Assembly: GCA_019638625.1 (NCBI GenBank)
Contig: JAHBTK010000007.1
Coordinates: 248,001-312,000, forward strand
Length of the DNA stretch: 64,000 nt
DNA from: Chitinophagaceae bacterium
Lineage (GTDB): Bacteria > Bacteroidota > Bacteroidia > Chitinophagales > Chitinophagaceae
Direction of reading: 5' to 3'
Below, one piece after another: positions 14,199 through 32,301 of the stretch (positions are counted from its first letter, which is position 1; every line of letters begins with the position of its first letter). Both the position numbers and the translations under genes were made by a program. Under the pieces are notes generated by a model, which did not search any database, was not told the origin of the DNA, and saw only the letters and a list, made by a program, of their open reading frames with translations.

Positions 14199-15506
14199 TT
14201 AAAAAGCGGGGTCTGCCGGTGTATTGGAATTATTATCTCTCTCCCTGAAAGGATAAGGAAAGAGGCTTCTTCTCTTTTCTTCATTGGGGCGTGAAAAACG
14301 GCGCATGTCTTCCGTTTTAAGCCCCGACATATACAGCTCAATGCAACGTTGCCGGTATATTTCTGTAAGTAAGGCATCTGCAGATTCGACCCCGGTGTAC
14401 ACTCCTTCGTCAGCGCCTATACCAAAAGGATCTGTGGCCGCGGTTTTGGTTCTTATTTTATTTATTTCAACTATTGCATCGGGTAGTGATGGAGAACTCT
14501 GGCGTACATAACACTCTGCCTTAATAAGAGTGATCTCCCCCGGCAGGTAAACCGGCCATGGGGTAGCAAGGGTTTCTCCGAAGCCTTTAATCCTCCATTT
14601 GGGGGCTACTGTTTCATTGATGGACATATAGAAAGCGGTGCGTTTATCAGATGCCGTAGGCGCCAGCACTTCCGGTAACCCAAAGGAAGAGTCAACCACC
14701 TGGAAAACATTATTGGTGGCTGTAGCTACATTGAATATTGGGTTAGGGCTGACAGCATCAAAATTCATGGTGCTTTTCACGCTCAGGTTCACATTGTTGG
14801 CCGCTGCCAGCGCTCCGCTGAAATCATTTGTAAACAGCAGGTACCGGGCTTTCAGCGCCTGCAGGGTATTCGGTATTTCTATTCCGGCGGGCAGGTTATT
14901 GGTAAAAGCCGTACTAATAGGATTGGCGGAAATTACAGCCAGGGCGTTATTAATGGTTGCTATGGCTTTTGCAAAGCCCTGCGAACGTGCTACGAATCCC
15001 ACATTGGCTCCTATGGTATCCGGTACCTGCTCCCAGAACATAGCAAGATTTCCGTAAGCAAGTGCTTTGAAAACAGACGCATAGCCGATCAGCCCGGCAG
15101 CATATCCTCTGTCTCCCAGGTTGACCGCATTGTTGATTACATTATTGGCATCATAGATCACTTTCAGGTTTAACGCCCAAAGGTTTCCTACTACGCCGTT
15201 GTTGCCATCTACATTGGTACCGCCAACCGATAAGTTAAATTCATCGGTATTCCCGGCATTCATCAGCCGCAACTCTTTAGTGGAGAATCCATTGGCTGTA
15301 ACCAGCGTGTATAAAGCGGAGGCCCGTCCCACACTGTATTGTTTTTGTACGCCAACGGCTACCCCTGTCAGGCCGACAGAAGAATTAAGCGCCTCATCAA
15401 ATTGGGTGGCGCCCGGGTTGGTGAAATTCTTTTTGCATGAACTTATACCCAGTCCGGCAATCGCCAGGATGAATACAGTATATCTTATGTTGTTCATATC
15501 GTTCAA
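14199..15506 (-). CDS. SusD/RagB-family nutrient-binding lipoprotein
   Basis: Outer-membrane lipoprotein that forms the lid of the SusC transporter and binds substrate. 435 residues with lipobox GISSC (Cys24) and the SusD features: an N-terminal helical repeat region (LWALNLKVIYDANNVINNA; YASVFKALAYGNLAMFWEQVP) and the conserved C-terminal block with TEIYRQRCIELYMSGLKTED around 395-412, which is the classical RQRxxELxxEGxRxxDMRR signature. It is shorter than the usual 500-600 residues. It lies 15 bp after susC in a deoR-susC-susD operon and shares a convergent terminator. Confidence 0.92.
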   Translation of the reverse strand: MNDMNNIRYTVFILAIAGLGISSCKKNFTNPGATQFDEALNSSVGLTGVAVGVQKQYSVGRASALYTLVTANGFSTKELRLMNAGNTDEFNLSVGGTNVDGNNGVVGNLWALNLKVIYDANNVINNAVNLGDRGYAAGLIGYASVFKALAYGNLAMFWEQVPDTIGANVGFVARSQGFAKAIATINNALAVISANPISTAFTNNLPAGIEIPNTLQALKARYLLFTNDFSGALAAANNVNLSVKSTMNFDAVSPNPIFNVATATNNVFQVVDSSFGLPEVLAPTASDKRTAFYMSINETVAPKWRIKGFGETLATPWPVYLPGEITLIKAECYVRQSSPSLPDAIVEINKIRTKTAATDPFGIGADEGVYTGVESADALLTEIYRQRCIELYMSGLKTEDMRRFSRPNEEKRRSLFPYPFRERDNNSNTPADPAF

Positions 15507-15521
15507 TTAAATTGATTAAAA

Positions 15522-18500
15522 CTAAAATTTGGTACTGAGCGTTAAAGCAAAGGTCCTGGGGATAGGCACATTACCGAAGTCGATACCACGTGCCAGCGTG
15601 CTGCCCCCGCCTGCATTGGTTTCAGGATCAAAGCCGTTGTATTTGTCCCAACTGATCAGATTGCGGCCGGACAGGCTTAGAGACAGGTCGCTGATCGCTT
15701 TGTTCAGTCTTCCGAAATTATACGTAAAAGATACTTCCCTCAGTTTTACGAAACTACCATTGTCCATGCGCCATTCTTCGATGGCATATATGCCACTCAC
15801 ATAACCACGGGGCAGTTCACCCAAATGCTCTTTCTGCGCAAATTCACTTCCGTTTCCGACTCCCTGCCGTGTACGAAAATCAGCGTTCCATACTTCCAGC
15901 CCCTGCACAGCGTCCAGTTGTACCCGCAGAGAGAGCTTTTTGTAGTTAAAAGTGTTTACCAGGGTGCCTGTCCAGTCAGGATTCGGGTTCCCTATGACCT
16001 TTCTTAAAGCTGTACCCGTTGGAAGGCCGTTGGCATCCCGCTGAGCAGTATAGGTAGAAACGCTGTTTTGCACGCCTCTTTCCTGTACAGGAATGCCATT
16101 GGCATTTTTTACTTCGGCACCATTGTCATCCCTGGCAAAAAAGAAACCGTAGAACACGCCTACGCTATAGCCGGGTATGAGAGAGGAAGAGCCTGCAGGA
16201 TTATTGTATTGAATAAGTCCCTGGGGAATTTCTTCTACCTTGTTTTTATTCCGGTTGTAGATCACATCAATATCCCAACTGAAGTTTTTGTTTTTAACAG
16301 GAGAACCGCCTATCATGATCTCAATTCCTTTGTTGCTGATAGTGCCCACATTACCCAATAAGCTGCTGAAGCCATTGCTGGGAGCAATAAACCTCGAAAG
16401 CAACAGGTCGGTTACCCGTTTGTTGTACCAGTTGAACGTGAGGTTGGCGCGGCCCCCGAGAAACGACATATCGGTACCTATTTCAATTTCTTTTTGTTTC
16501 TCGGGTTTCATCAGTTCGTTAGCCAGTGTGGAAGAGGACATTAAAGCAGTTCTGCCAACCAGGGGACTTGACCCATATACATTAAACCGGTCGTAGGCTC
16601 CGATACCCGTAAGGTTGCCGCTTTCGCCATAAGCTGCCCGTATTTTCATGTAATCCCAAAACCGGTTCAATCCTGCTTTTTCCCAAAAGGCTTCATCGCT
16701 GATGATATAGCTGCCGCTTAATTTGGCATAAAACTGGTTGCGCTCTTCTTCCCCAAAAACCGAAGAGCCGTCCACACGTCCGGCGGCTGTTAAAAAGTAG
16801 CGGTTCCTGAACTTGAAATTCTGTTGCAGGTACCCTCCGTTAATGGATATCTCTGATCTTTGATCCGTACCGGGAAGTACAGTGCTGGCGCCGGTTACTG
16901 TTTGCACAAAGGGCGCCAGTCCGCGTCCCTGCAATATGGTAAAGTTCGATTTTTCATACTGCATGGAATATCCCACCTGTGTAGTAGAGATCAAATCCGG
17001 AGTGATGTTTTTATTGAGCGTGGCGTTCAGTTCGTGGTTGATCAGGAACTGCTGGTTATTACCGGCGCTTGCATAACCATTCAGGGTTGGATCCATACTG
17101 ATTCCACCGCCCCAGAAATCGGGGCTGGCATTGTAGGTATAAGGAGGTATATAGGTTGTACCCATCTGGCTGATATTATCGACACCTACCGTATAATCAA
17201 CGGTCACATCTTTTATTGGTCTTAGCTTCAGGGCTAAGGAAGAAATCACCCTGTTGGTTTGATTACGTTGTTTGATGTCTTCAATAATGCTCACCGGGTT
17301 AATACGGCCTCTTTCTCCCACTGCCAGCAAATTGCCGTTATCATCCCTTTTCCAGATATCATGAAAATTACCGATGATGGTAATACTGTTAATGGGAGAG
17401 AAAAAGGAGTTTCCGTCCGGCTTCTCATTGGCCATACTGTTGGTATAACTTATACCGGCTGCCACGCTGGCCCAGCTTGACAGTTCCTGGTCGAGGTTCA
17501 GGCGAAATGCGAATCGTTGAAAGTCGGTATTTTTAATAATGCCCTGGTTGTGAAAGTACGAGGCAGAGGCGAAATATTTGGTCTTATCTTTTCCACCCCT
17601 CACCGAAAGGTTGTTATCTGTCCCCAATCCGTCTCTGAAGATATAATCCCAGTAATTATAACGGGTAACCGGCGTGGTGTTGGTATAATCCAGCAGCAGG
17701 ATATCCTGCGTAATGGCACCTGGTCCGTCCGGCGCGGGGCCGAATTTAACCGGTGCGGTATTGTACCCGGGATCTTTTCGCAACTGGTTTACATTCACAC
17801 TGGTGCTGAAGCTTACTGCCGGTGCGCCGGTGCTTCCTCTTTTGGTAAAGATCTGCACTACTCCCGCGTTGGCACGGCTGCCATAGATGGCCGCTGCTGC
17901 CGCGCCGTTTAGTACCTCTATTCGTTCAATATCGTTGGGGTTAATATCTACCATACGGTTAGGGGCAGGTGAAATGATGCCGTCATAGCCCGCTTGTGTA
18001 TTGGTTACCCTGCGTGCACTGTTGCTTACAATTACCCCGTCAATTATATACAGGGGCTCGCTGGAGGAATTAATAGTGCTGGTCCCCCTCAGTCTTACCG
18101 ACATACTGCCCCCGGGGTCGCCGGAATTCTGACTGATCTGGGCGCCGGGGGTTTTTCCCTGCAATGCCGCTAAAACATTTCCGGTAGTGGCTTTGGCAAG
18201 CTGGTCGCCTTTTACCGTACTGATGAAGCTGCCCAACTGGCGCCGGGTAGTTCCCTGCGAAGTGCCGGTTACTACCACTTCGTCCATGCCCAGCGGATCT
18301 GTTTCCAGTTCTGCATTCGCCTGGTAGGAGTCGGCATTACCTATTGTAATTGCCTGTTCCCGGATTTTGAATCCTATACCTGAAAATACCAGCACATGAT
18401 TGCCGGGGCTGATATTGGCAGAAATGACGTAACTGCCATCGGCATCACTAATGGCGCCGGTATTGCTGTTGCGCAATGATACCGAAATGCCGGGAAGCCC

Positions 18501-18632
18501 TTCCCCGTTTTTGTCAGTGATTTTCCCCGAAATGCGTACCTGCGCCGAAGCTGCTATACACAGCAGTTGCAGGATTAATACAAAAGGAACCAAACGGTAT
18601 TTCTTTTGTAGGCGTGAAAGTCTTTTTTTCAT
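15522..18632 (-). CDS. SusC/RagA-family TonB-linked outer-membrane transporter
   Basis: A 1036-residue TonB-dependent importer. Signal peptide to about residue 30 (LCIAASAQ), carboxypeptidase-regulatory-like domain at 32-110, TonB-box region DEVVVTG near 115-121, plug at about 125-240 with the SusC markers LRGTSTINSSSEPLYIIDGV and NDIERIEVLNGAAAAAIYG, then the beta barrel ending in TLSTKF with a terminal aromatic residue. There is no STN signalling domain, so it should be a plain transporter without anti-sigma signalling, in contrast with the SusC at 20737. It lies 52 bp after deoR and 15 bp before susD, so the three form one operon. The substrate is not readable from sequence; the operator shared with anmK points to amino sugars. 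Confidence 0.95.
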   Translation of the reverse strand: MKKRLSRLQKKYRLVPFVLILQLLCIAASAQVRISGKITDKNGEGLPGISVSLRNSNTGAISDADGSYVISANISPGNHVLVFSGIGFKIREQAITIGNADSYQANAELETDPLGMDEVVVTGTSQGTTRRQLGSFISTVKGDQLAKATTGNVLAALQGKTPGAQISQNSGDPGGSMSVRLRGTSTINSSSEPLYIIDGVIVSNSARRVTNTQAGYDGIISPAPNRMVDINPNDIERIEVLNGAAAAAIYGSRANAGVVQIFTKRGSTGAPAVSFSTSVNVNQLRKDPGYNTAPVKFGPAPDGPGAITQDILLLDYTNTTPVTRYNYWDYIFRDGLGTDNNLSVRGGKDKTKYFASASYFHNQGIIKNTDFQRFAFRLNLDQELSSWASVAAGISYTNSMANEKPDGNSFFSPINSITIIGNFHDIWKRDDNGNLLAVGERGRINPVSIIEDIKQRNQTNRVISSLALKLRPIKDVTVDYTVGVDNISQMGTTYIPPYTYNASPDFWGGGISMDPTLNGYASAGNNQQFLINHELNATLNKNITPDLISTTQVGYSMQYEKSNFTILQGRGLAPFVQTVTGASTVLPGTDQRSEISINGGYLQQNFKFRNRYFLTAAGRVDGSSVFGEEERNQFYAKLSGSYIISDEAFWEKAGLNRFWDYMKIRAAYGESGNLTGIGAYDRFNVYGSSPLVGRTALMSSSTLANELMKPEKQKEIEIGTDMSFLGGRANLTFNWYNKRVTDLLLSRFIAPSNGFSSLLGNVGTISNKGIEIMIGGSPVKNKNFSWDIDVIYNRNKNKVEEIPQGLIQYNNPAGSSSLIPGYSVGVFYGFFFARDDNGAEVKNANGIPVQERGVQNSVSTYTAQRDANGLPTGTALRKVIGNPNPDWTGTLVNTFNYKKLSLRVQLDAVQGLEVWNADFRTRQGVGNGSEFAQKEHLGELPRGYVSGIYAIEEWRMDNGSFVKLREVSFTYNFGRLNKAISDLSLSLSGRNLISWDKYNGFDPETNAGGGSTLARGIDFGNVPIPRTFALTLSTKF

Positions 18633-18684
18633 GATGCAGTTTTTGTTTGAAATAAATAGGTAATACTATATGGTTGTTCAAGGA

Positions 18685-19431
18685 TTATAAGACAGTCATC
18701 CCTGTCTTTCTGTAAGGTTCTAGTTGAGTATCTCCGGGATCAAGCTCTGTTATCAACACATTTACTTTGTCCAGCCCGCACACCCTGATCTTTTGAGACG
18801 AATTCAGCTTTTCAGATATCGTTAATGCTACTACCTGTCTGGCAGACCCGATCATGGCTTTTTTTACCTGTACCACTTCCCAGTCGTTATCGGTGATGCC
18901 AACATCCGCGTCGATGGCATTGATGCCTAAAAAGCAGAGGTCTGCCCTGATGTCTTTTATTTTTGCGACAGTTTCTGCACCGATGGCTATTTTGGAACTT
19001 TTTGAAATTCTGTCACCTGTAAATATGACGTCGATATAGGGGTGATGTATGTATTCATAGGCTGCAGGCAAACTTGGGGTAATAAATGTAGCATTTAGCT
19101 CCGGAGGTAAGGATTTGGCCAATTCGATAATAGTGGTGCCCCCGGTTGTTAAAATAAACATTCCGTTCTTTATTAAACTCAGCGCTTTGTGGGCAATCGT
19201 TTTTTTGCCTGAAGAGGCATAAACAAGATTTTCGCTATCGGAAAGGTGAAAAGATTTGGATAAGGCTCCACCGTGAACTTTTATCAGTTGGTGGTTTTTG
19301 GCCATTTCATTGAGATCGCGCCGGATCGTGTCTTCCGAAACGCCCATTTTCTGGCTGAGGTCAACAGATAACACCCTGTTGTGCAGGTTTACCTCCCGGA
19401 GAATGAAAGACTGACGCTCCCGTTTAAGCAT
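18685..19431 (-). CDS. DeoR/GlpR-family transcriptional repressor
   Basis: A 248-residue sugar-phosphate-responsive repressor. The N-terminal winged helix at about 1-57 has the DeoR signature (RVLSVDLSQKMGVSEDTIRRD, then LIKVHGGAL), followed by the DeoRC effector domain, with FILTTGGTTIIELAK and the ITDNDWEVVQVKKAMI stretch typical of sugar-phosphate binding. It is the first gene of an operon with susC and susD. A TGC-periodic element at 19450-19491 covers its own upstream region (19-60 bp from the ATG), and a close copy lies before anmK. This is the basis for proposing autoregulation and control of anmK. The inducer is presumably a phosphorylated sugar, possibly an amino-sugar phosphate (inference). 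Confidence 0.94.
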   Translation of the reverse strand: MLKRERQSFILREVNLHNRVLSVDLSQKMGVSEDTIRRDLNEMAKNHQLIKVHGGALSKSFHLSDSENLVYASSGKKTIAHKALSLIKNGMFILTTGGTTIIELAKSLPPELNATFITPSLPAAYEYIHHPYIDVIFTGDRISKSSKIAIGAETVAKIKDIRADLCFLGINAIDADVGITDNDWEVVQVKKAMIGSARQVVALTISEKLNSSQKIRVCGLDKVNVLITELDPGDTQLEPYRKTGMTVL

Positions 19432-19641: not shown

Positions 19642-20700
19642 ATGCGTAATCAGGATCATTATAAAGGTTATACCGAGGAGCAGTTTGCAGCAGATGAGTT
19701 TTTTCAAAAGTGGGTATTAATGCCTGATGACGAAAATGAGAAGTTTTGGTGGGATTTTATAGAGAAAACCCCTTCCAGGAAAATAGCTATTGAAAACGCC
19801 CGTAAACTTGTAGAGCACTTGACTGAAAATGGTTTTCATATTCCCTTTTTGTCCGCTGTAGAAAAGCAGGAGCTAAAATCGAGCATCTTCGGGGTGATCG
19901 GTCAGTCGGTGGGGGTTACCCTGACAGACAAACCCGCTTTTTCCGGAAGATCTGCAAAGGGGATTTGGTGGTCCCTGGTGGCAGGAGTACTTGCCATTGT
20001 TACCGGTTTTGTTTTTTTCAAGAACGGCAAAAAGGAAGAAGGGGTGCCGGGAAGGCTGGTAAAGACTAATACTGTTTCCCGCCAGGTAAAAGAGATTTTA
20101 TTGCCGGATAATTCGATTGTCATTTTGAATGGAAACTCCTCAGTAAGTTACCCGGAGCAGTTCAATACTGCTTTGGGAAGAGATGTTTTTTTAGAAGGCA
20201 ATGCGTATTTCAAGATTAAAAATTACCAGGGAAAACCATTTGTTGTACATACAAAGCAGATGGAAATTACCGTTACGGGTACGGAATTTAATGTAAATAG
20301 CCGGCTTACTACTACCAATGTGGTGCTGACACAAGGAAGTATCCGTGTGAGTTTACCCGGAGAAGATCATTTTCAAAAAGCATATATGCTGCAGCCTGGA
20401 GAAACCCTGCAATACAATTCGGACAACGGGGAACTGGTGACGGGTACCACGAGAACGGAGCTGTACACCAATGCCTGGGGTGACAATGAATGGCATTTTG
20501 ACAATACGTCGCTCGCAACGGTGTCCGGCTTGATAGACCAGTTTTACGGTACAGAAGTAGTTTTTGGAAATGAACAATTAAAAACATTAACAATATCTGC
20601 GGTCGTTTCAGTAAAGGATTTTTCAACCCTTATTCGTGTCATCGAAAAAACGTTGAATATTGCCATTACGGAAGAACCCGGAAAAATTTTTATTAATTAA
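19642..20700 (+). CDS. FecR-family anti-sigma factor without adjacent sigma gene
   Basis: Inner-membrane protein that passes a signal from an STN-bearing SusC to an ECF sigma factor. The 352 residues comprise a cytoplasmic N-terminus (1-105), one membrane segment (about 108-126, WSLVAGVLAIVTGFVFF), the periplasmic FecR domain at about 145-245 (DNSIVILNGNSSVSYPEQF; VTGTEFNVNS; LTQGSIRVSLPG) and the DUF4974 C-terminal domain, ending in the usual STN-like beta module. It lies 36 bp before an STN-containing susC, as expected. Normally an ECF sigma gene precedes fecR; here the preceding 210 bp are non-coding and the next gene is deoR on the other strand, so the sigma partner must be elsewhere. Confidence 0.94.
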   Translation: MRNQDHYKGYTEEQFAADEFFQKWVLMPDDENEKFWWDFIEKTPSRKIAIENARKLVEHLTENGFHIPFLSAVEKQELKSSIFGVIGQSVGVTLTDKPAFSGRSAKGIWWSLVAGVLAIVTGFVFFKNGKKEEGVPGRLVKTNTVSRQVKEILLPDNSIVILNGNSSVSYPEQFNTALGRDVFLEGNAYFKIKNYQGKPFVVHTKQMEITVTGTEFNVNSRLTTTNVVLTQGSIRVSLPGEDHFQKAYMLQPGETLQYNSDNGELVTGTTRTELYTNAWGDNEWHFDNTSLATVSGLIDQFYGTEVVFGNEQLKTLTISAVVSVKDFSTLIRVIEKTLNIAITEEPGKIFIN

Positions 20701-20736: not shown

Positions 20737-23700
20737 ATGATGAAAAGCCGTTTTTTCTCAAAACGCTGCTTAGGGACAATCTCAGCGACTTTATTGTTGC
20801 TCACGGTTGTAGTGGGTACAATGGCACAGGATGCGCTGTTGTCTCTTCCCGGCGATCAACCAGTTAAATCAGTTTCAGAGGCTGGCGCAAAAAGGGCCTC
20901 TCTGGAAACTTTTATGAAAGAGTTCAAAAAAGTCTATAGTAATATTTACTATAGCTATCAATCAAGTACCTTAAAAGAGGTGCCTGTTTCCTATGCGGAA
21001 TTGAATGCGGCAAAGGAAAGCAATCCGGATATTGTATTGCAGGGTGTTTTAGTACCTGCCGGACTAAGCTTTGAAAAGATCAAAGAAGTGTATGTGATCA
21101 GGAGGGAAGGCAATATCAGCAGGACAGAAGACAATTACATGGTGGAAGCGGTGCAACGCACTGTTCTTGCCGATTTTTCGGTTCGTGGAACTGTAACTGA
21201 TGCAAATGGCGGTGTACCAGGGGTTACCGTTTCCGAAAGGGGAACCACCAATGCTACAACTACTGACGGAGATGGCAACTTTTCCTTAAATGTGGCCAAC
21301 TCCTCCGCAGTATTGGTATTTTCTTCCATCGGCTACAAAACACAGGAAGTAGCGATAGGCGGCAGAAATTCAGTGAGTGTATTTCTGGAAGCCGATGCGC
21401 AGGAACTGGAAAGCGTAGTGGTAACGGCGCTGGGTCTCACTCGCGATAAGAAATCACTGGGATATTCGATCGGAACCGTAAAAGGGGATGATATGACCCA
21501 TGTGGCCAATGAAAATATGTTGACCTCTATGGCCGGTCGTGTTTCGGGTGTTACCATCAACCAAACCAGCGGTGTGGGTTCTTCTATCAGTGTAATTATC
21601 AGGGGGGCAAGCTCTTTGATCAATAATCAGCCGCTGTATGTTATTGATGGTGTACCCATGGGTAGCTCGTTAAGAAATGTATCGGAGAAAGGAAGCAATA
21701 ACAGGGTCGATTACGGGAACGCAATTTCAGACATCAATCCGGATGACATCGAGAGTATTTCCGTGTTAAAGGGACCCAGTGCTGCTGCATTGTATGGTTC
21801 TAGGGCAGGTAATGGAGTAATTCTGATCACTACTAAATCTGGTAAAAAAGGAAAAGGATTTGGTGTTTCTTTCTCTACTTCCAATGTTTTTGAAACCCCT
21901 TACCGTTACCTGGATCTTCACTACAAATATGCCAACGGCGTTCGCCCAAATCAACTGGACCCGACATCTGCATATTGGGGCGGTTATCCGCTGGATCAGG
22001 GAAATAAAGCGGTACAATGGGATAGCCCGCTGGATGCCAATGGAATGCCCGTTGCGTCAGACCTTGTTTCTTACAAGGATAATATGAAAAATTTTCTCAA
22101 TACTGGTATCACCTCCACAAATAATATTTCTGTTGGGGGCTCCACTGAGAAAATGAGCTATAGGTTGTCGTATAACAACATGAACAATAAGGGCTTGATT
22201 CCCGGACAAGATTTATACAGGAACAACATCTCTCTTGCAGGCTCTTACGAGATTACCAAGAATCTGTCAGTTAATACAAATATCAACTGGGTTCGTTCCA
22301 ACTCCAATAGCCGACCGCTTACTTCCGAAAGAAATGCTAATCCGTTGGAGGCGATCTACGATGCGCCCTATGTGGATATGACCAAGTTCAAATCTATCTG
22401 GAAGCCGGGACTGGAAGGAATAGAGCAATTAAAGCACGCAACTAATAAGAATAACGCTTACTTTCTGGCCCAGGGCATCCAGAATGCTTTTGTAAGGGAT
22501 CGTTTCTATGGAAATGTAAAATTTGACTGGAAAATATCTGATGCTTTTTCTGCGTTTGTAAGGGGAACTTTTAATACTACAAATGAGTATCGAGATACCA
22601 AAATACCCTGGAGCTATACTTCGCTGCCAAGAGGAGGCTATTATGTAGAAAACCTTTTCGGGCAGGAAGTGAATACAGACTTCCTTATTTCCTATAAGAA
22701 AAAGGTGAGCGACCTGGATATTAGTGTTTCTGCCGGCGGTAACTACATGCAGGCAAACTGGCAAAACCAGAATATGGGGGGCAGGGACCTCGCGGTGCCT
22801 AACCTGTACAGGATGAACAATGTAGCAAGAGCAACGTTGGCATATGACAACACCAGAGCACGAAAAAATATCTATAGCCTATATGCTATGGCTTCTGTTG
22901 GGTTCAAAGACCAGGTGTATTTAGATTTGACAGGAAGAAACGACTGGTCCAGTACGTTACCTGCTAGCAGCCGCTCTTATTTCTACCCGTCAGCATCTCT
23001 AAGCTGGCTGGCGCATACCACGCTGAACCTGCCGAGTAATGTTTCTCTCCTGAAACTCAGAGGTGGATGGGCGCAAACCGGTAACGATACCGATCCTTAT
23101 TCATTATATCCTGCGTTGTCAATGGGCAGTTGGGGATCATTGATCACCAGTGGTATGCCTGGCGGACTGAGTAACCCTAACCTTAAACCGGAAATAGCTA
23201 CTTCCATTGAAGGAGGGATCGACTTTGCGATGTACAACAATCGCCTGAGATTTGATATCACTTACTATGACCTCAACAACAGAAACCAGATATTTAGTGT
23301 TGCAATGCCTGCATCAGCCGGTTATACAAGCAAGATCGTGAACGCAGGACGTTTAAACAGTAAGGGCTGGGAAGTGGGCATTGGCGGTACGCCGATAAAG
23401 AACAAAGACTGGAGTTGGGATTTACACGCTAACTTTACGCGCAATCGTGTGTATATAAAGGAATTGATTGACGGAATGGAATTTTTCTCTTTCTGGGGTG
23501 AGGCAAGCGCCGGCGCCTATACATTTGTTGGGGAGGAAGTGGGAGACCTGTACAGCAGGGGGTATCTCCAGGTTACAGATCCCAACTCTCCTTACTACCG
23601 TTGGCCTATTATTGAGTGGGATGGAGCGTCAGGTGGTATGCAGTGGCAGGAACTTCCGGGGGGTAACGGTAACCCTAATAATGAAAAGGTGGGTAATTAT

Positions 23701-24411
23701 AACCCGCGCTTCTTAATGGGATTACAATCAACCCTTACCTGGAAGCGCTGGGCCCTGGGCTTGAGCTTTGACTGGAGAAATGGCGGTAACTTTATGTCAT
23801 TCACCTATCGCTACGGTGAATCTGACTGGAAGTCACAAAGGCAGTTGGACAATTTGATCCCTGGTGGATCGTACACCAAGGCCGAATTGGTTGCTTTGTT
23901 AAAATCAAATCCTGAAAAGTATATCATTCCGCAAAATGGAAACTTCCCGAGGGTGGGAGGGCATACGCAGCAAACAGGTGGTTTTGCTCTTACCGATGGT
24001 GGAACTACATTGTATGACGGTGTGTTTATCCCCGGTGTTTGGCAGGATGCAGCCGGAAACTATCACGAATGGTTAGGCGGAGATGGCACTCAATACATCC
24101 CCATCACAGATGCTTATCCATGGAGCTTTAATAAGCAGGTTACCTTTGATGCATCGTTTATTAAACTCAGGGAAATAACTTTGAGTTACAGGATCCCGAA
24201 CCTGTTTGGCGTAACGCGTAATGCTACTTTCTCTGTGTACAGCAGAAACCTGATGTTGTGGAACGCTGCGAAGATTGGTATCGATCCGGAAAGGGCTTAC
24301 TGGGCTGATCCGGGCGCTGCCGGCGGTGGTGGATTCCGCCAGGGTATTGAAAGGCAGAACGTGATGCCCTGGACCATACCATTCGGATTCAAACTGAATG
24401 TTGACTTTTAA
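20737..24411 (+). CDS. SusC/RagA-family TonB transporter with STN signalling domain
   Basis: A 1224-residue outer-membrane transporter that also signals. Signal peptide to about 31 (TMAQ), an STN (secretin/TonB N-terminus) domain at about 45-120 (SLETFMKEFKKVYSNIYYSY; GLSFEKIKEVYVIRR), a carboxypeptidase-regulatory-like domain at 147-220, TonB box ELESVVVTALG, plug with VIIRGASSLINNQPLYVIDGV and DIESISVLKGPSAAALYGSR, and a barrel ending in FKLNVDF. The STN domain is the part that contacts FecR, and the fecR gene is directly upstream. susD follows 23 bp downstream. The substrate is unknown. Confidence 0.95.
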   Translation: MMKSRFFSKRCLGTISATLLLLTVVVGTMAQDALLSLPGDQPVKSVSEAGAKRASLETFMKEFKKVYSNIYYSYQSSTLKEVPVSYAELNAAKESNPDIVLQGVLVPAGLSFEKIKEVYVIRREGNISRTEDNYMVEAVQRTVLADFSVRGTVTDANGGVPGVTVSERGTTNATTTDGDGNFSLNVANSSAVLVFSSIGYKTQEVAIGGRNSVSVFLEADAQELESVVVTALGLTRDKKSLGYSIGTVKGDDMTHVANENMLTSMAGRVSGVTINQTSGVGSSISVIIRGASSLINNQPLYVIDGVPMGSSLRNVSEKGSNNRVDYGNAISDINPDDIESISVLKGPSAAALYGSRAGNGVILITTKSGKKGKGFGVSFSTSNVFETPYRYLDLHYKYANGVRPNQLDPTSAYWGGYPLDQGNKAVQWDSPLDANGMPVASDLVSYKDNMKNFLNTGITSTNNISVGGSTEKMSYRLSYNNMNNKGLIPGQDLYRNNISLAGSYEITKNLSVNTNINWVRSNSNSRPLTSERNANPLEAIYDAPYVDMTKFKSIWKPGLEGIEQLKHATNKNNAYFLAQGIQNAFVRDRFYGNVKFDWKISDAFSAFVRGTFNTTNEYRDTKIPWSYTSLPRGGYYVENLFGQEVNTDFLISYKKKVSDLDISVSAGGNYMQANWQNQNMGGRDLAVPNLYRMNNVARATLAYDNTRARKNIYSLYAMASVGFKDQVYLDLTGRNDWSSTLPASSRSYFYPSASLSWLAHTTLNLPSNVSLLKLRGGWAQTGNDTDPYSLYPALSMGSWGSLITSGMPGGLSNPNLKPEIATSIEGGIDFAMYNNRLRFDITYYDLNNRNQIFSVAMPASAGYTSKIVNAGRLNSKGWEVGIGGTPIKNKDWSWDLHANFTRNRVYIKELIDGMEFFSFWGEASAGAYTFVGEEVGDLYSRGYLQVTDPNSPYYRWPIIEWDGASGGMQWQELPGGNGNPNNEKVGNYNPRFLMGLQSTLTWKRWALGLSFDWRNGGNFMSFTYRYGESDWKSQRQLDNLIPGGSYTKAELVALLKSNPEKYIIPQNGNFPRVGGHTQQTGGFALTDGGTTLYDGVFIPGVWQDAAGNYHEWLGGDGTQYIPITDAYPWSFNKQVTFDASFIKLREITLSYRIPNLFGVTRNATFSVYSRNLMLWNAAKIGIDPERAYWADPGAAGGGGFRQGIERQNVMPWTIPFGFKLNVDF

Positions 24412-24434: not shown

Positions 24435-26150
24435 ATGAAAATAGTAAAAACATTATTGAAAGGCGTTCTCGTTTGCTCCCTGTTTCTGGTGGCATCCTGT
24501 GCCAAAAAACTGGATGAGTTTAACGAAAACCCCAATGCGGTAGACCCGGCGACTGCCAATCCCAACCTTATTTTACCGACGGTGCTTAGTGCAGCAGGCA
24601 ATAGTTACTTAGGTCTGGGTTATGGAAAAATCGGCGGCACCATGCAGCACATGCAGGAAGATGGCTGGTTCTCCGGTTACAATGCGTATGACTGGAGCGA
24701 AGAAGACTGGAGTGGGTGGTATGGTATTTTAAGGAACAACCAGTTCTTACTGGATCGTGCTACAGAGTTGAACTATCCCCTTCATTTGGGAATAGCACAA
24801 ACAATGCGTGCATTTATCTTCGGTACGATTACGGATCTTTGGGGAGATGCACCTTATTCTGAGGCTTTGAGAGGAGCTTCTGATATCACTTTTCCTGCTT
24901 ACGACACACAGGAAGCCATTTATAAAGGTATCATTGAGGAACTCAAGACTGCCGTAGCTACATTGGGCAGCGTGGGAGATGCTTCCAGCTACTACGCATC
25001 CGGGTATGATATTTATTATAATGGTGATGCTGCCAAATGGAAAAAGTTTGCAAACACGTTGTTGCTGCGTTATGCCATGCGGTTGTCAACCAAATTACCG
25101 GATCTTGCAAAGTCAACACTGGAAGCTGTTTATTCATCAGGCGACTATATAAAAGCTACCAGTGAAGACGCCGTTATGAATTATGCAGGTATTGATCCTG
25201 GCTCAGCTTGGCCGGCAAATACAGTTGCTGACCCCAGTGAGTCTAACTGGAGAAGAAGGAAGGCATGTGCTACTTTATTGGATAAACTTGGCGACCTGGA
25301 TGATCCCAGGAGAGGGGTGTGGTTCCAGCCTGTTCATGTAAGGTGGGTATCAGATGCAACGCTTGGCACAGCCCTCGATCCCTATATAAGGGAGAATGGC
25401 GTGCTTACAGACAAAGTGTCGATCACTGATATGGAATACAAGGCCAATTCTGGTAAAGTGTATACACGGCATTTTAACCCCAGCCTGTTTGTGCCGAGCT
25501 TGTTCAACCCCGCTCCGCCTAAAACAACTGCCTATGTGGGTGTACCGCCCGCCTTGTTATATCCGGATTACCATAACAGTAACCCGACTCCCGGGCAGAG
25601 CGTGGAAAACCAGCATGTATCCCAGTTGTCATATAACTTCCAGAAAAAGGATGATGGTGCAAACGGCATTCTAAAAGCCCGGCTGGCTACTGCTTCAGAA
25701 GCGGCTTTCATCCTTGCTGAAGCTGCTCAAAAAGGCTGGTCCGCCGGTACAGCAGAAGCTAACTACAATAACGGGGTGAAGTTCTCGCTTGAGTCCTGGG
25801 GAGTAGGTAGCGAATACGCCGGTTATATTGACAATGCCGGTGTGGCTTACAACGGAACACAGGAGCAAATATTAGAGCAGAAGTGGATTGCCGGTTTCGC
25901 CAATGCCCTGGAAGCATGGTTTGACTGGAGAAGGACCGGATTGCCTGTTTTAACAGCGCCCGGTAATGGATCGGTGCAGCCTGTACCGCCCGTAAGACTT
26001 ATCTATGGTAATAATGAGATCAATGTAAATAAAACCAATGCTGAAGCTGCCATAAGCAGGATGGCGACAACGCCTTACAGTACGTTAAGGGGCAAGAACA
26101 GCCAGTGGGCAAAACCCTGGTTAATTGAAGGAACCGGTAAACCCTGGTAA
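24435..26150 (+). CDS. SusD-like outer-membrane lipoprotein (SusD-like_2 type)
   Basis: 571-residue lipoprotein partner of the preceding SusC. Lipobox VASC (Cys22), followed by KKLDEFNENPNAVDPATANP, the N-terminal signature of the SusD/RagB 'SusD-like_2' subgroup, then TITDLWGDAPYSEAL, the conserved aromatic/acidic block of that subgroup, and a C-terminal stretch WIAGFANALEAWFDWRRTGLP. This subgroup is found with transporters for varied substrates, not only glycans. It is followed within 62 bp by an intrinsic terminator, so transcription of downstream genes is likely reduced. Confidence 0.93.
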   Translation: MKIVKTLLKGVLVCSLFLVASCAKKLDEFNENPNAVDPATANPNLILPTVLSAAGNSYLGLGYGKIGGTMQHMQEDGWFSGYNAYDWSEEDWSGWYGILRNNQFLLDRATELNYPLHLGIAQTMRAFIFGTITDLWGDAPYSEALRGASDITFPAYDTQEAIYKGIIEELKTAVATLGSVGDASSYYASGYDIYYNGDAAKWKKFANTLLLRYAMRLSTKLPDLAKSTLEAVYSSGDYIKATSEDAVMNYAGIDPGSAWPANTVADPSESNWRRRKACATLLDKLGDLDDPRRGVWFQPVHVRWVSDATLGTALDPYIRENGVLTDKVSITDMEYKANSGKVYTRHFNPSLFVPSLFNPAPPKTTAYVGVPPALLYPDYHNSNPTPGQSVENQHVSQLSYNFQKKDDGANGILKARLATASEAAFILAEAAQKGWSAGTAEANYNNGVKFSLESWGVGSEYAGYIDNAGVAYNGTQEQILEQKWIAGFANALEAWFDWRRTGLPVLTAPGNGSVQPVPPVRLIYGNNEINVNKTNAEAAISRMATTPYSTLRGKNSQWAKPWLIEGTGKPW

Positions 26151-26170: not shown

Positions 26171-26212
26171 CAGAAAAACCTGTAGGATGTATTCCTGCAG
26201 GTTTTCTGTTTT
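26171..26212 (+). terminator. Intrinsic terminator/attenuator between susD and the phosphatase gene
   Basis: CAGAAAAACCTGTAGGA (26171-26187) pairs with TCCTGCAGGTTTTCTG (26193-26208) with one bulged A, and is followed by a T-rich end (TTTTAC). It lies 12 bp before the ATG at 26225, leaving no room for a normal promoter. Confidence 0.75.
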
Positions 26213-26224
26213 ACAATCTGCATT

Positions 26225-28114
26225 ATGAAAAAAACGTTAGCAGTTTTTCTTTCAATAATCCTTGTTGATATTGTTATTGCTCAGCAGGGCAATTCAGGGT
26301 TTGAAGTGCAACCCTATCTTCAATATGCTACGCAGAACAGTATCAGGATACATTGGGAAACTACAATGCCCGCAAATGGTTATGTATGGTATGGTCCGGC
26401 AATGCTACATTCCGGCAAAGCCGTTTTACCCAATAAAGCGGTAGCAGGCAGTGCCGGTAATATGCAATATGCCGTTCTCGGTAACCTGCAGCCGGAGACC
26501 GTTTATTTTTACCAGGCAGTGTCCGTATTGCCTGGCGGTGATACCCTGAAGTCTGCCGTTAATACTTTTCAGACAGCGATGAAAGACAGTTCCGCTTTCG
26601 CCTTTGCTGTGTTCAGCGATTCACAGAATGACTGGAAAGACCCGGAAGTATGGAAACGCGTCAGTGAGCAGGCGTATAAGGAGCGTCCGAACTTTGCCGT
26701 GCATGCCGGCGACCTGGTGGACCTCGGGTACATGAAAGATGACTGGGTGAATGAATTTTTGGGGCAGGGAAATTTATTTATGAAAACGATTCCCATCTTC
26801 TCTATTCCCGGAAACCATGAACACGATGCCGGTTACTATTACCAATATATGTATGTTCCGCAACCTTATTTCTATAGTTTCAGGTATGGCAATGCGGAGT
26901 TTTTTATGATAGATACCGACCAGTACCAGGAAGAGGGCACTGATATGTTTAACGCGGTAGAATTGGCCCTGGCCAAATCGAATGCTTACTGGAAGTTTGT
27001 AATACACCATCACCCTCCTTTTTCATCAGACGACGATGATTTCGGCAATACCTACCATGAAGCTTCTGCATTGGGCGATGACGAAGTACAACAACTGGTG
27101 CCACTATATGAAAAGTATGGAGTGGATATCGTTTTCTACGGGCATATACATACCTATGAACGTACCTGGCCGATACGGGAGAATAAAACCGTTGCTGAAA
27201 ACGGGGTTATATACATCAATGTCGGCGGTGCCGGTGGCAGCCTGGAAAACCCCGCGCCTACCCGTTCCTGGTTTACCGAAAAATTGAGGACCATCCATCA
27301 TTTCGGGTATGTAGCCATTAATGGACAACAACTGCGCTTTCAGGCAATTGACGAAAATGGTAACCTGTTTGATGCTTTCTCTCTCAGCAAAAGCAGGAAA
27401 GATTTAATTAAAGATATTACACCGGCTGCCCCGCTTGCTCAAACAGCCAGGCGATTACTCACAGATACCCTGCACTTAAAACTGCTGACAGCCCGGGCGG
27501 GTGACAAGGTTTACTATACAACAGACGGTTCGGAGCCTACGCAAGGCAGTCAGCCCTATTCCGGAAATATCGTGTTGGATAAAACAGCAGGCGTGAAGGC
27601 GGCAGCTTTTAACGATGCCGGACGAAGCCGCATAACCAGCTACCGGTTTACCAAAGAAATGACGCATAAGGCGGTAAAAGGTAAAAGGTTTGTACAAGGG
27701 TTACGCTATGGATATTTTACCGGTCAGATACCTGATAGTGATGACGTTTATTTTTCTACAGTAAAATTTTCGAAAACAGGTATTCTTCCGGGGTTAATCC
27801 CCGACAGTATTGCTCATGCGGAACAATACTGGGGCGCTGTATTCTCCGGGTTTTTCTATGCACCTGAAACAGGATATTACCGGTTTGACGGGCATGCCGA
27901 TCATAGATTACGATTACATATACACGACAAATTGTTGTTTGATGAGAAAAACCGTGAAATAAATTATGTAGGAGAGATCTACCTGGAAAGAGGGCATCAT
28001 CCGGTAAAAGTGGAATATTACAACAGCCGGAAAAACAGGGCGTTTATCGAATTATATTATACGCCACCCGGAATGGAACGGCAGGCAGTTCCGCTTTCGG
28101 CCTGGTGGCGTTAA
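26225..28114 (+). CDS. Secreted purple-acid-phosphatase-like metallophosphoesterase with PA14 domain
   Basis: A 629-residue exported phosphoesterase. Signal peptide 1-19; a fibronectin-like purple-acid-phosphatase N domain at about 25-115 (VQPYLQYATQNSIRIHWET); a calcineurin-like catalytic domain at 120-335 with all metal-ligand motifs: D132, HAGD 160-163, GNHEH 196-200, HHHPP 261-265 and GHIHTYER 306-313; a chitobiase-C-like beta module at about 405-480 (VYYTTDGSEPTQGSQPYSG); and a C-terminal PA14 glycan-binding domain at about 495-629 (GFFYAPETGYYRFDGHADH). The two carbohydrate-associated modules suggest that the phosphate is removed from a polysaccharide or glycoconjugate. Immediately preceded by a terminator. 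Confidence 0.9.
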   Translation: MKKTLAVFLSIILVDIVIAQQGNSGFEVQPYLQYATQNSIRIHWETTMPANGYVWYGPAMLHSGKAVLPNKAVAGSAGNMQYAVLGNLQPETVYFYQAVSVLPGGDTLKSAVNTFQTAMKDSSAFAFAVFSDSQNDWKDPEVWKRVSEQAYKERPNFAVHAGDLVDLGYMKDDWVNEFLGQGNLFMKTIPIFSIPGNHEHDAGYYYQYMYVPQPYFYSFRYGNAEFFMIDTDQYQEEGTDMFNAVELALAKSNAYWKFVIHHHPPFSSDDDDFGNTYHEASALGDDEVQQLVPLYEKYGVDIVFYGHIHTYERTWPIRENKTVAENGVIYINVGGAGGSLENPAPTRSWFTEKLRTIHHFGYVAINGQQLRFQAIDENGNLFDAFSLSKSRKDLIKDITPAAPLAQTARRLLTDTLHLKLLTARAGDKVYYTTDGSEPTQGSQPYSGNIVLDKTAGVKAAAFNDAGRSRITSYRFTKEMTHKAVKGKRFVQGLRYGYFTGQIPDSDDVYFSTVKFSKTGILPGLIPDSIAHAEQYWGAVFSGFFYAPETGYYRFDGHADHRLRLHIHDKLLFDEKNREINYVGEIYLERGHHPVKVEYYNSRKNRAFIELYYTPPGMERQAVPLSAWWR

Positions 28115-28158: not shown

Positions 28159-30384
28159 ATGATACGTTTTGTATGGATCGTATTTCTATTGTCGCTGTCA
28201 ACCCCTGCTTTTAACCAGTTATCGCATTATCCGGTGGCAATTTCCGATACGCCTTTCCGGCAGGAATACCATGTGCCGCATTTTCCCGGAAACCTTCCTG
28301 CTGCAGACATTCGAAGCGTTGCAGTAGATACGGAAAGGAATATATGGGTTGCGACTGCTGGCGGTATTTTCAGGAAAAAGGAAGAGGAAAAGAACTGGCA
28401 AAAGGTAACTGAAGGCTTGGAGGACGGACCTGCATATCATATTCTGTTTCACCCGGAGTCGGGGATATGGGCGGCCACCTGGAAAGGCGTGTTCCTGCAT
28501 AGTGGTACCGGGTTCAAAAAAATAACCGGTACGGAAGGCCCGGTTGCTGTTTTATGCAGAGCCGGGAAAGGGGTGTATGCTTTTGGTCCAAAAGGTTTTT
28601 GGCTTTGCAACGGGGTGACGGCTACCGTGGTAGATGCTAAAATTGCCAGGTCGGTAAGGTCTGCTGTTTCCAATGAGAAAGGAGAAGTCTGGATAGGCAC
28701 CGATGTGGGGTTGTACCACTATACCGGCGGTTCCGTCAACTACTATTTTGATTCTACCTCTCTCGTAAGCGCCTATGTGAGGGGTGTTGCGCTAAAAGGC
28801 GGGGAACTGTGGGCTGGAGGATTGGGAGGAGTTACTGTGCTTAACGAAGGAGTTAAACAGAAGACATTACAAACATCAGATGGACTGCCTTCTCAATATG
28901 TAAACTGTATGGCGGTGGCGCCCGATGGCTCCGTATGGGTGGGCACAGACGTTGGTATTATACGTTTTTATACAGATGGCAGCCACTCACTCCGGTTCAG
29001 CCGGCGATGGCTGTTGAATGACAGGGTCAACCAGATCGTTTTTGATATGGCAGGTACCGCCTGGGTGGCTACTCAGGGTGGTGTAAGCGCTATATATAGC
29101 AAGGAAATGACCCTTTCGGATAAAGAAAAATATTTTTACGATGTTACCATGCAGCGGCATGTGCGGGAGCCATGGATCGTGGGGCAGTGCAGGCTGCCGG
29201 ATCCGAATGATTTGACGAGATGGGAACCGGAGGATGATGATAACGATGGAGAATACGGGGGCGTTTACCTTGCTATGGAAAGCTTTCGATATGCCGTCAC
29301 TAAAAGCAATGACGCAAAAGAAAAGGCGAAAAAGATGTTTGACTTCCTGAAACTCCTCCGGGAAATAACCGGAACGGATGGTTTTTTTGCCAGAACGATA
29401 GTACCGGCATCATGGGGCGATCATGTACATGATAAAAACAGGACTTACAGTGAAAGGGAGCTGGCAGAAGAACTGGTGAAAGAGCCACGGTTCAAACCGG
29501 TAGAAACCCGGTGGCATACCTCCAAAGATGGTAAATGGTTGTGGAAGGGAGATACGAGTAGCGATGAATGGTGCGGGCATATGATGGGTTATTTTTTCTA
29601 TTATGAATTGGTAGCGGATAAAAAAGAGAAGCAGATAGTGGCGAAACATGTGGCCAGGCTGGTTGACCACCTCATCAAAAATAATTTCAATATGGTGGAT
29701 GTTGATGGAGCACATACCCGTTGGAGCGTGTGGAGCCCGGATAAGTTAAACCGCGATCCGGAATGGATGCCCGACAGGAACCAGAATTCCATGGAAGTAC
29801 TTGGTTTTTTAAAACTGGCCTATTATATGTCGGGAGACAACAAGTATCAGCAGCATTATCTTCGTTTGATTCGTGAAGAAGACTACCTGGAAAACATGAA
29901 AAAGATACAGCAGCAAAACCCGGCCTGGTTTATCTATTTTGATGTTATATTGCAGTTATACGTTTATCCCATACTGTTACATTGTGAAAAAGACCCGGAA
30001 TTGTTGCGATTTTACGAATCTCATTTTGACAACTGGATGCTTGCAAGAAAAGGAGATAAAAATCCGTTGGTCAATTTCTTTTACAGCTATGCGAGAAAAA
30101 AGAAGGTAGAGCTGGAGGCTTCTGTAGAATTTCTGAGAGATACACCGCTGGACCTGGTAAACTGGGGGTTTGATCATAGTAAGCGGGAGGATGTGCAAAT
30201 GGTTCGTGTGCCTGTAATGGACGATCTCCAGGTAAGCGAGTTGCCCCCCGCGAGTATCAGGGCAACCGTAAGATGGGATAAAAACCCATGGGCCGCTATC
30301 AACGGACAAACCCATACGGAAAGAGAACCGGTTTTCTGGTTGTTACCCTATTGGATGGGAAGGTACCTGAAGATGATAGAGTAA
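28159..30384 (+). CDS. Secreted beta-propeller plus helical-toroid protein of unknown function
   Basis: 741 residues. Signal peptide at about 1-19. Residues 50-330 contain six Reg_prop-type propeller blades, each with a W(V/I)(A/G)T..G(I/V) core (NIWVATAGGIF, GIWAATWKGVF, EVWIGTDVGLY, ELWAGGLGGVT, SVWVGTDVGII, TAWVATQGGVS). Residues 335-741 are helix-rich with conserved-looking aromatic/acidic patches (PDPNDLTRWEPEDDDNDG; DEWCGHMMGYFFYYEL; DPEWMPDRNQNSMEVLGFL; VFWLLPYWMGRYL), consistent with an (alpha/alpha) toroid such as in lyases or GH families. There is no membrane segment, kinase or HTH domain, so it is not a hybrid two-component sensor although the propeller is of that type. It is 44 bp after the phosphatase gene, so probably co-transcribed. 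Catalytic role is inference. Confidence 0.75.
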   Translation: MIRFVWIVFLLSLSTPAFNQLSHYPVAISDTPFRQEYHVPHFPGNLPAADIRSVAVDTERNIWVATAGGIFRKKEEEKNWQKVTEGLEDGPAYHILFHPESGIWAATWKGVFLHSGTGFKKITGTEGPVAVLCRAGKGVYAFGPKGFWLCNGVTATVVDAKIARSVRSAVSNEKGEVWIGTDVGLYHYTGGSVNYYFDSTSLVSAYVRGVALKGGELWAGGLGGVTVLNEGVKQKTLQTSDGLPSQYVNCMAVAPDGSVWVGTDVGIIRFYTDGSHSLRFSRRWLLNDRVNQIVFDMAGTAWVATQGGVSAIYSKEMTLSDKEKYFYDVTMQRHVREPWIVGQCRLPDPNDLTRWEPEDDDNDGEYGGVYLAMESFRYAVTKSNDAKEKAKKMFDFLKLLREITGTDGFFARTIVPASWGDHVHDKNRTYSERELAEELVKEPRFKPVETRWHTSKDGKWLWKGDTSSDEWCGHMMGYFFYYELVADKKEKQIVAKHVARLVDHLIKNNFNMVDVDGAHTRWSVWSPDKLNRDPEWMPDRNQNSMEVLGFLKLAYYMSGDNKYQQHYLRLIREEDYLENMKKIQQQNPAWFIYFDVILQLYVYPILLHCEKDPELLRFYESHFDNWMLARKGDKNPLVNFFYSYARKKKVELEASVEFLRDTPLDLVNWGFDHSKREDVQMVRVPVMDDLQVSELPPASIRATVRWDKNPWAAINGQTHTEREPVFWLLPYWMGRYLKMIE

Positions 30385-30500: not shown

Positions 30501-31388
30501 ATGCATATTGTAAAACTAATATTGTGCTGCTTTTTCATCTGCAGGTTCGATCCGGTTGTTTTATCGGGGCCGGTAGTTGCCGGGTCCGGATTGTTTGACA
30601 ATGAGTTGCAGAACGAATATGATTCGATACTGGATGTGGCATACGGAGATGCGGGAAGGGATAACCTGCTGGATATACACCTGCCTAAAGGCAGGGATGG
30701 TAGTACTAAACTGGTTGTTTACATACATGGCGGCAGTTGGGTGCGTGGAGATAAAAAAGAGTTTCCCGCCGCTTTATTGCAGGAAATGGTAGGTAAAAGA
30801 AAATACGGACTGGTGTCTATGAACTACCGCCTGGTAAAGGAAGGGAAAAATATTTTTCCGGCGCAAATAGAAGATGTGCAAAAAGCAATTGCCTACCTCC
30901 GTACACGGGCAAAAGACCTGCAATATGATCCTGATAATTACGCCCTGATGGGAGCCAGCGCCGGGGCCCACCTGGCTTTGTTGTACGCCTATGGTTATGA
31001 TTCATTGAAACAGGTAAAAGCAGTGGTAGATATTTTCGGACCATCCGATCTGACGGACGAAATTGTTCGCCGGAAGGGTTCGGAGAGCAACGATATCATT
31101 GAAAACTTCCTGGCAACAGGCGATACGGCTGCGCAGATAGCCAAAACCGCCAGCCCGATCTATCATCTTAATAGCGGTACGGCCGTACCGACACTCATTT
31201 TTCATGGTACGGCAGACAGCCTGGTACATGTAAGTCAGTCGGAAATGCTGTATGCAAAGCTGCAGGAGATCGGCGCTCCTTCCGAACTTGAGTTATTCCC
31301 CGGCGAAAAACATGAATTGCGTCCGCAAATTGCATTCAGCTTGTTTGGAAAAATGTTGCAATGGTTGCAGGAGTATTATAAGCCATAA
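30501..31388 (+). CDS. Alpha/beta-hydrolase, acetyl-esterase/lipase type
   Basis: 295-residue hydrolase of the esterase/lipase (BD-FAE-like) group. An N-terminal hydrophobic stretch (VKLILCCFFICRF) suggests export. Catalytic landmarks: the oxyanion motif HGGSW at 76-80, the nucleophile elbow GASAG at 151-155 (Ser153), the Asp in FHGTADSLVH around 233, and the His in GEKHELR near 269. Family members deacetylate or deferuloylate sugars or cleave small esters. It is the last gene in the same direction after the SusC/SusD locus, 116 bp from its neighbour, and could supply an esterase to that pathway. Confidence 0.88.
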   Translation: MHIVKLILCCFFICRFDPVVLSGPVVAGSGLFDNELQNEYDSILDVAYGDAGRDNLLDIHLPKGRDGSTKLVVYIHGGSWVRGDKKEFPAALLQEMVGKRKYGLVSMNYRLVKEGKNIFPAQIEDVQKAIAYLRTRAKDLQYDPDNYALMGASAGAHLALLYAYGYDSLKQVKAVVDIFGPSDLTDEIVRRKGSESNDIIENFLATGDTAAQIAKTASPIYHLNSGTAVPTLIFHGTADSLVHVSQSEMLYAKLQEIGAPSELELFPGEKHELRPQIAFSLFGKMLQWLQEYYKP

Positions 31389-31599: not shown

Positions 31600-32301
31600 T
31601 CAGAAGTTGCCTACATTTCCATAGGCATGCACTTTTTCGCATATCAGTCGCAGGGAGCTTTCCAGGTCGCCATCGGCGGTTTTGAAAGCATCTGCGTCAA
31701 TAGTGAGCGGGGCGCCCAGTACTACTAACGGTGCTCCATATTCGGGGCATTTTACCGCCTGCTCCAGGGTTAAACCACCAACCGCCTGTACGGGAATACT
31801 TACTGCCTGTACCACTTCCCTCAGTTGGTCCAGCGGGCTGGGCATGCGCTCGCCTCTTGCGACTATTCCTCTTCTTTCGTCGTATCCTATATGATGGATC
31901 ACATAATCACAGCCGAGATCTTCCAGCCATTTGGCTCCGGCTACCATGTCCGGGCAGCCGAGGTTATCGCCCATTACTTTTGCGCCGAAATCTTTTCCGG
32001 CCTGCACCACACATTTTATCGTTTCTTCATGTGCTCTTGCCATTACTACTACGTGTGTAGCACCTGCTTTGGCCATCATTTCGGCTTCCAAGTATCCGCC
32101 ATCCATCGTTTTCAGGTCGGCCACAATCGGCACACCGGGAAAGGCCTCTCTCAGCTTTTTTACACCATGCAGCCCTTCTGCCAGTATCAGAGGCGTTCCG
32201 GCTTCCAGCCAGTCTACCCCGGCACGCATAGCCAGTGCGGCGGTTTCCAAAGCCTCATCAATATTAGTAAGATCGAGTGATATCTGGACGATCGGTTTCA
32301 T
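31600..32301 (-). CDS. Orotidine-phosphate-decarboxylase-superfamily aldolase, 3-hexulose-6-phosphate-synthase-like
   Basis: 233-residue (beta/alpha)8 enzyme of the HPS/KGPDC group. It starts with QISLDLTNIDEAL, has WLEAGTPLILAEG (HPS: E-L-G-T-P-L-I) and the metal/catalytic motif DLKTMDGG at 62-69 (HPS: DxKTMDAG), and ends with the phosphate-binding loop AVGGLT and LVVLGAPLT. HPS condenses formaldehyde with ribulose-5-phosphate or the reverse; KGPDC decarboxylates 3-keto-L-gulonate-6-phosphate. Sequence is nearer HPS, but a central segment (GDNLGCPDM..., GYDERRGIVARGERM) is longer than in methylotroph enzymes. No phosphohexuloisomerase gene is adjacent. The exact substrate is unsure. Confidence 0.85.
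   Translation of the reverse strand: MKPIVQISLDLTNIDEALETAALAMRAGVDWLEAGTPLILAEGLHGVKKLREAFPGVPIVADLKTMDGGYLEAEMMAKAGATHVVVMARAHEETIKCVVQAGKDFGAKVMGDNLGCPDMVAGAKWLEDLGCDYVIHHIGYDERRGIVARGERMPSPLDQLREVVQAVSIPVQAVGGLTLEQAVKCPEYGAPLVVLGAPLTIDADAFKTADGDLESSLRLICEKVHAYGNVGNF

Follow-up and report, generated by a model that had tools for sequence, protein, structure and literature searches.

Several families of (alpha/alpha) toroid proteins are lyases, AGE enzymes use a catalytic His, and the GH127 and GH146 families, which carry beta-sandwich domains, work with a Cys nucleophile and zinc-binding Cys/Glu residues. Propellers with Reg_prop repeats are found in hybrid two-component sensors such as BT4663, BT3049 and BT4673, and both the propeller fold and the repeats are common to these sensors and to the protein described here. 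This protein is encoded in a window of 64,000 nucleotides (the whole stretch of DNA analysed) from a Chitinophagaceae bacterium (contig JAHBTK010000007.1, positions 248,001 to 312,000). We consider it likely that this protein is a secreted enzyme that degrades glycans, most probably as a glycoside hydrolase (GH) of an undescribed family, with a catalytic toroid on which a propeller is packed.

The intact open reading frame (28159-30384, + strand) has an ATG start and encodes 741 amino acids. It begins with a signal-peptide-like N-terminus (residues 1-20, 28159..28218), read from the sequence and forming a low-confidence tail in the model, which is the sole hydrophobic stretch noticed by eye, in agreement with the original prediction that the protein has no membrane segment. 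A Pfam scan of all 741 residues detected Reg_prop (PF07494, 53.1 bits, E 1.1e-14) in the N-terminal half and no other family above cut-off; by Pfam, the protein thus has no kinase, receiver or DNA-binding domain, the first and last of which had already been predicted to be missing. A two-component sensor was ruled out on the same grounds. On the + strand, the signal-like N-terminus is followed by a seven-bladed beta-propeller (residues 33-317, 28255..29109), recognised by Pfam Reg_prop, model strands and VIA-align, and by an (alpha/alpha) toroid (residues 319-741, 29113..30381), recognised by AlphaFold2 and VIA-align and belonging to no Pfam family. The predicted fusion of a Reg_prop propeller with a helical toroid therefore stood as regards both halves, but had to be corrected in the number of blades, which had been given as six, and in the boundary, since the helical half had been placed from residue 335 and the model puts its start at about 319.

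In the whole-protein AlphaFold model, built with 38 sequences (pLDDT 93.4, pTM 0.91), the strands, grouped by hand, form seven blades at residues 53-74, 92-121, 131-157, 166-196, 207-237, 247-279 and 290-317; these strands rule out a six-bladed propeller. The N-terminal strand at residues 33-41 is likely the closing strand of the modelled propeller. The model matches propellers over residues 33-321, the best match being the hybrid two-component sensor BT4663 (4a2l; VIA-align Z 30.6 over 279 aligned residues, rmsd 2.8). The pTM value indicates that propeller and toroid are confidently packed in the model, an arrangement that is compatible with a role of the propeller in substrate binding but is no proof of it, and the propeller residues Q35, R283 and W284, invariant in 38 sequences, would fit a domain interface. 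No propeller-toroid enzyme was seen among the 50 matches listed per whole-protein structure search. The repurposing of a sensor propeller in the original prediction is conjectural: Reg_prop is a broad label for propellers, only 25 of the 38 family members match it at E 0.01, and the protein also has a weak match to PorZ. A streptogramin-lyase-like propeller as the active part was set aside; the likeness, to 2qc5 and 2z2n, is structural.

The toroid was modelled separately with AlphaFold2 (residues 317-741, 47-sequence alignment), giving a mean pLDDT of 94.5 and a pTM of 0.94, and both models bear out the helix-rich second half originally predicted. Foldseek returned three PDB chains at E <0.001, each a cellobiose 2-epimerase (best E 2.3e-4), and lower matches to mannose isomerase, GH76, GH146, GlcNAc 2-epimerase, GH88 and GH9. 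With VIA-align the best match was YPO2471 (Z 18.1, rmsd 3.6, 298 residues aligned), ahead of the GH76 enzyme BT2949 (Z 17.9), an epimerase (16.4), GH116 (15.7) and GH105 (14.8), rows no more than 1 Z apart counting as tied; drimenyl diphosphate synthases, which are terpene cyclases, reached Z 14-15. In all, 538 of 999 chains reached Z >=8. As the best structure matches are nearly all toroid proteins, the fold of the C-terminal half is a toroid, with no single family ahead among those present in the Foldseek and VIA-align match lists, which is the range that this comparison covers. The occurrence of the same fold in epimerases, lyases and terpene cyclases counts against reading the toroid as a glycoside hydrolase.

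On its own, the C-terminal half has no Pfam match at E up to 1, a search of Pfam with 16 homologous C-terminal halves gave only three stray matches (E 0.06 or worse), and profiles of 16 and 47 sequences compared with PDB chains returned a single chance row (E 2). In profile comparison using 47 rows, GH127 was found at E 1.6e-6 (probability 90%, 202 columns), in an alignment that opens with the DGEY...YLAMESFRYAVTK pair of helices and extends beyond it. The other values were E 0.0034 for AGE (64 columns), 0.023 for GH88 (probability 2%), 0.039 for GH76 (87 columns, a weak test with four GH76 sequences) and 0.25 for DUF2264 (likewise a weak test, with five sequences), and six non-toroid controls gave E 0.095-0.87. 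Kinship with GH88, GH76, AGE and DUF2264 thus receives no support from this comparison, which is a weak test for GH76 and DUF2264. Pfam GH127_cat is matched by one of the 38 family members (E 0.0077), and the window protein matches none of GH127_cat, GH76 and GH88. At best, judging from these profiles, the C-terminal half would be remote kin of the GH127 clan, outside its membership. The family is set apart by comparison with Pfam and the PDB, and may already have a CAZy or dbCAN number; no description of the propeller-toroid architecture was recognised in the open-access literature, in a search too narrow to prove its absence.

Conservation was analysed in the 47-sequence toroid alignment and in a second set of 38 sequences. 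Eighteen ORFs lacking the start pattern used for cutting out the toroid were left out, four of these loci being restored by hand in alignment A3, and alignment A4 omits 3 of 26 picked full-length ORFs and includes others. Being conserved across 47 aligned homologues, the C-terminal half is no chance feature. Among the 58 columns conserved at >=90% in the 47 sequences, nine are acidic (D361, D363, D469, E470, D516, D595, D665, D678 and E721), and the window protein has every one of them. They are all located on a single face, which is made up of the long loops together with the first turn of each inner helix. This face comprises 242 of 425 positions, and the bias of the acids towards it (p 0.006; p 0.008 when all consensus D/E serve as background) is to be read as a guide only, since the face was chosen from the helix pattern after the model was in view; no such bias is seen for conserved residues that are small or hydrophobic (16/26, p 0.39). 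By analogy, the face so defined in the model corresponds to the active-site face of toroid enzymes, and its topology suggests a putative pocket there.

The conserved acids are found, in order along the + strand, in a D361-N-D363-G motif before an inner helix (29239..29250; both Asp invariant in 47 and 38 sequences), in a TSSDE motif at an inner-helix N-terminus (29554..29568; D469 invariant, E470 >=90%), in a D-x-D516-G-x-x-T-x-W-x-x-W-x-P loop (29698..29739; G517, W522, W525 and P527 invariant, D516 >=90%), at D595 on another inner-helix N-terminus (29941..29943; >=90%), in a P-x-D665 ... R676-x-D678 loop (30145..30192; all three invariant in 38 sequences, R676 and D678 also in 47), and at E721, which together with an LLPYWMGRY tail motif occupies 30319..30366 (E721, Y731, R735 and Y736 invariant). 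The original prediction of conserved aromatic and acidic patches in the C-terminal half is thus recovered in the 47-sequence alignment. It had also proposed structure prediction, fold comparison and conservation mapping, which returned a toroid and conserved acids on a face of the active-site type; neither a different fold nor a lack of conserved pocket residues was found.

These acids bear on whether the protein is instead a non-catalytic glycan binder or sensor, with the propeller as working part and the toroid as scaffold. Its propeller does resemble those of the sensors BT4663, BT3049 and BT4673, but a scaffold would have no need of conserved acids that all lie in the loops of one face, and toroids alone with a signal-like start exist (in L028 and L080), so that we regard such a role as quite improbable. 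Neither His nor Cys occurs among the 58 columns conserved at 90% in the 47 sequences. Since no Cys is conserved, the zinc-Cys nucleophile site of GH127/GH146 is missing. An AGE-like enzyme that epimerises or isomerises free sugars or oligosaccharides would agree with the top Foldseek E-values (2.3e-4), those of cellobiose 2-epimerases; however, the AGE profile is matched weakly (E 0.0034 over 64 columns), no His is conserved at 90%, as opposed to the His of AGE enzymes, and the protein has a signal-like start and a propeller, all of which makes this activity very unlikely.

The propeller-toroid architecture is that of a large unnamed family and no one-off. Five matched places in the genome of origin correspond to four genes, and, in a sample of 296 genomes from the phylum, matches to the C-terminal half occur in 7, the genome of origin counted. 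In the GTDB species collection, at least 591 stretches contain the motif and at least 554 encode a relative. The loci that we examined, the best 80 of these at least 554, belong, as labelled in the records, to Bacteroidota and seven further phyla (Nitrospiraceae, KSB1, Phycisphaerae, Calditrichota, Hydrogenedentota, Omnitrophota and a Chthonomonas-like Armatimonadota bin), although single phylum placements may err because the non-Bacteroidota records are metagenome bins. A tree of 47 toroids contains a 30-row group (100/100) with the window protein and all phylum-named non-Bacteroidota rows, and a 13-row group (100/100) of tandem paralogues of Bacteroidota. Copies often occur two or three in tandem. 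Two of the target's paralogues in the genome of origin, L003 and L005, stand in tandem on contig 7 (~88-93 kb) and fall into the second subfamily of the tree; another, on contig 1, is ~1.8 kb away from a GH127-like gene. A search that reached close relatives only found none in viruses or plasmids.

Among the matches listed, the 81 neighbourhoods contain 135 ORFs with a toroid, of which 125 have 650-830 residues, the exceptions being edge-cut or split ORFs, two tandem doubles, a GH20 fusion of 1408 residues and one 407-residue ORF. Two toroid copies occupy one ORF in L039:9282-13823 (1514 aa) and L077:9247-13698 (1484 aa). Propeller-less toroids of 407 residues with a signal-like start are encoded in L028:1243-2463 (-), an ORF from a separate search of sampled genomes, and L080:2371-3591. 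The fusion is a single in-frame ORF, L077:5007-9230, in which a GH20 beta-hexosaminidase (168-478) precedes a whole propeller-toroid (692-1404), and it is known from a single metagenome bin.

Gene context, in which neighbours were named from one representative per cluster, points to a glycan-enzyme role through GH20, GH92, GH38, GH31, GH141, GH127, BNR and YdjC. Among the matches listed, a BNR sialidase-like gene is near 19 of 81 loci, a YdjC deacetylase near 16, a phosphoesterase and NagX near 10 each, a GH141-like gene near 5 and a GH92 cluster near 4, and there are single neighbours with GH38, GH31, GH127, GxGYxYP, DUF2961 and UxuA domains. SusC is near 26 and SusD near 19 of the 81 loci among the matches listed, which may be the chance level in Bacteroidota. 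GH20 is near 11 of 81 loci (matches listed), against about 1.2 expected in 80 windows. This chance control, covering GH20 alone among the partner genes, used 34 genomes picked by hand from the 80 loci; because every one of the 11 loci that have GH20 nearby was included, the expected value is, if anything, raised. Nine of the 11 belong to Chitinophagaceae, its genera or unplaced Bacteroidota, one to Chryseolinea and one to KSB1, and since the loci are phylogenetically related, the cases are non-independent and independent events are few. Partner genes differ between lineages. DUF3748 proteins also recur beside toroid genes, with a cluster in 21 of 81 loci among the matches listed (e.g. L102:4355-5725).

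Another neighbour, the mannonate dehydratase UxuA, would suit a polysaccharide lyase, i.e. a toroid acting by beta-elimination on uronic-acid glycans with a Tyr/Arg-type site and no carboxylate pair. UxuA is near 11 of 81 loci among the matches listed, is in the same putative operon in three and, as a UxuA-like gene, adjoins the target homologue in L093; lyases are known from several toroid families, and R412, R676, Y731 and Y736 are invariant in 38 sequences. However, all 11 members of the UxuA cluster come from one genus, Dyadobacter, none of the 58 columns at 90% is a conserved His, and the GH20, GH92 and GH38 partners suggest neutral and amino sugars; we therefore find a lyase unlikely.

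In the window, the target gene stands among genes that are all on the + strand and separated by gaps of 23 to 116 bases: a FecR-like anti-sigma gene named by eye (19642..20700), a SusC-like TonB-dependent transporter (20737..24411; Pfam Plug and TonB_dep_Rec_b-barrel), a SusD-like lipoprotein (24435..26150; Pfam SusD-like_2, E 1.8e-78), a metallophosphoesterase resembling purple acid phosphatases, in which Pfam also recognises CHB_HEX_C and PA14 domains (26225..28114), the target itself, and an alpha/beta hydrolase of the BD-FAE esterase type (30501..31388; Pfam BD-FAE, E 4.7e-51). The 74-base gap between the SusD and phosphoesterase genes contains a 13-pair hairpin whose tail is rich in T (26175-26205); the genes after it may be expressed at a lower level as a result, and a single transcript for the locus is thus only putative. 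Promoter and terminator scans gave the same counts as in shuffles. Beside the locus, the opposite strand carries a second SusC/SusD-like pair and a DeoR-type regulator, named by eye (14199-19431, -), as well as a gene resembling 3-hexulose-6-phosphate synthase or 3-keto-gulonate-6-phosphate decarboxylase (31600-32301, -), which is below all curated NCBIfam cut-offs.

From the conserved carboxylates and the partner genes, we infer that a glycoside hydrolase is to be favoured over a lyase or an epimerase; the same partner genes allow the guess that the substrate is a branched GlcNAc- or mannose-containing glycan. Family members probably break down complex sugars. The enzyme nature originally proposed is supported by the toroid, by the acids on an active-site-type face and by the glycan-type gene context, the activity itself being predicted. 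The glycoside hydrolase would reside in the periplasm or on the cell surface, with the C-terminal toroid as its catalytic module. A glycan end would go into a funnel on the long-loop face (D361/D363, D469/E470, D516, D595, D665/D678, E721), conserved Trp residues of this face could stack on sugars, and two of the conserved carboxylates would act as acid/base and as nucleophile or base. The seven-bladed propeller, rigid on the toroid, would shape or extend the binding site, and the enzyme would serve a SusC/SusD glycan-uptake locus together with the phosphoesterase and the esterase. More tentatively, we suggest that the family as a whole might consist of glycan-degrading enzymes from at least eight phyla, the Reg_prop-type propeller being a constant element in the build of the toroid active site; genome annotation would then label members by their propeller only, or not at all. 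Pfam has no family for the seemingly catalytic half, and the genes occur in hundreds of species genomes. If they are enzymes, this is a new carbohydrate-active family to be named and assayed, and annotations based on the propeller only (two-component regulator) mislead.

Compared with known systems, the target differs from the Reg_prop hybrid two-component sensors in having, by Pfam, no kinase, receiver or DNA-binding domain, and one propeller followed by a toroid. Its likeness to PorZ, a type IX secretion protein with a propeller, is weak, as its score of 39.8 bits is far under the PorZ cut-off of 260. AGE epimerases rely on a catalytic His, whereas the target toroid has none among its 58 columns at 90%. 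The GH76 alpha-mannanases share the toroid (Z about 15-18), and their adjacent Asp pair (titles of 6shm and 6y8f) might find a counterpart in the conserved D469-E470 of the target, although the latter has no Pfam match to GH76 and no profile similarity in a comparison with only four GH76 sequences. The GH127/GH146 beta-L-arabinofuranosidases, finally, have an (alpha/alpha) toroid as in the target, GH146 being among the Foldseek matches, and provide the closest profile of the five toroid families compared; they differ from the target, which has no conserved Cys and carries an N-terminal propeller in place of their beta-sandwich domains.
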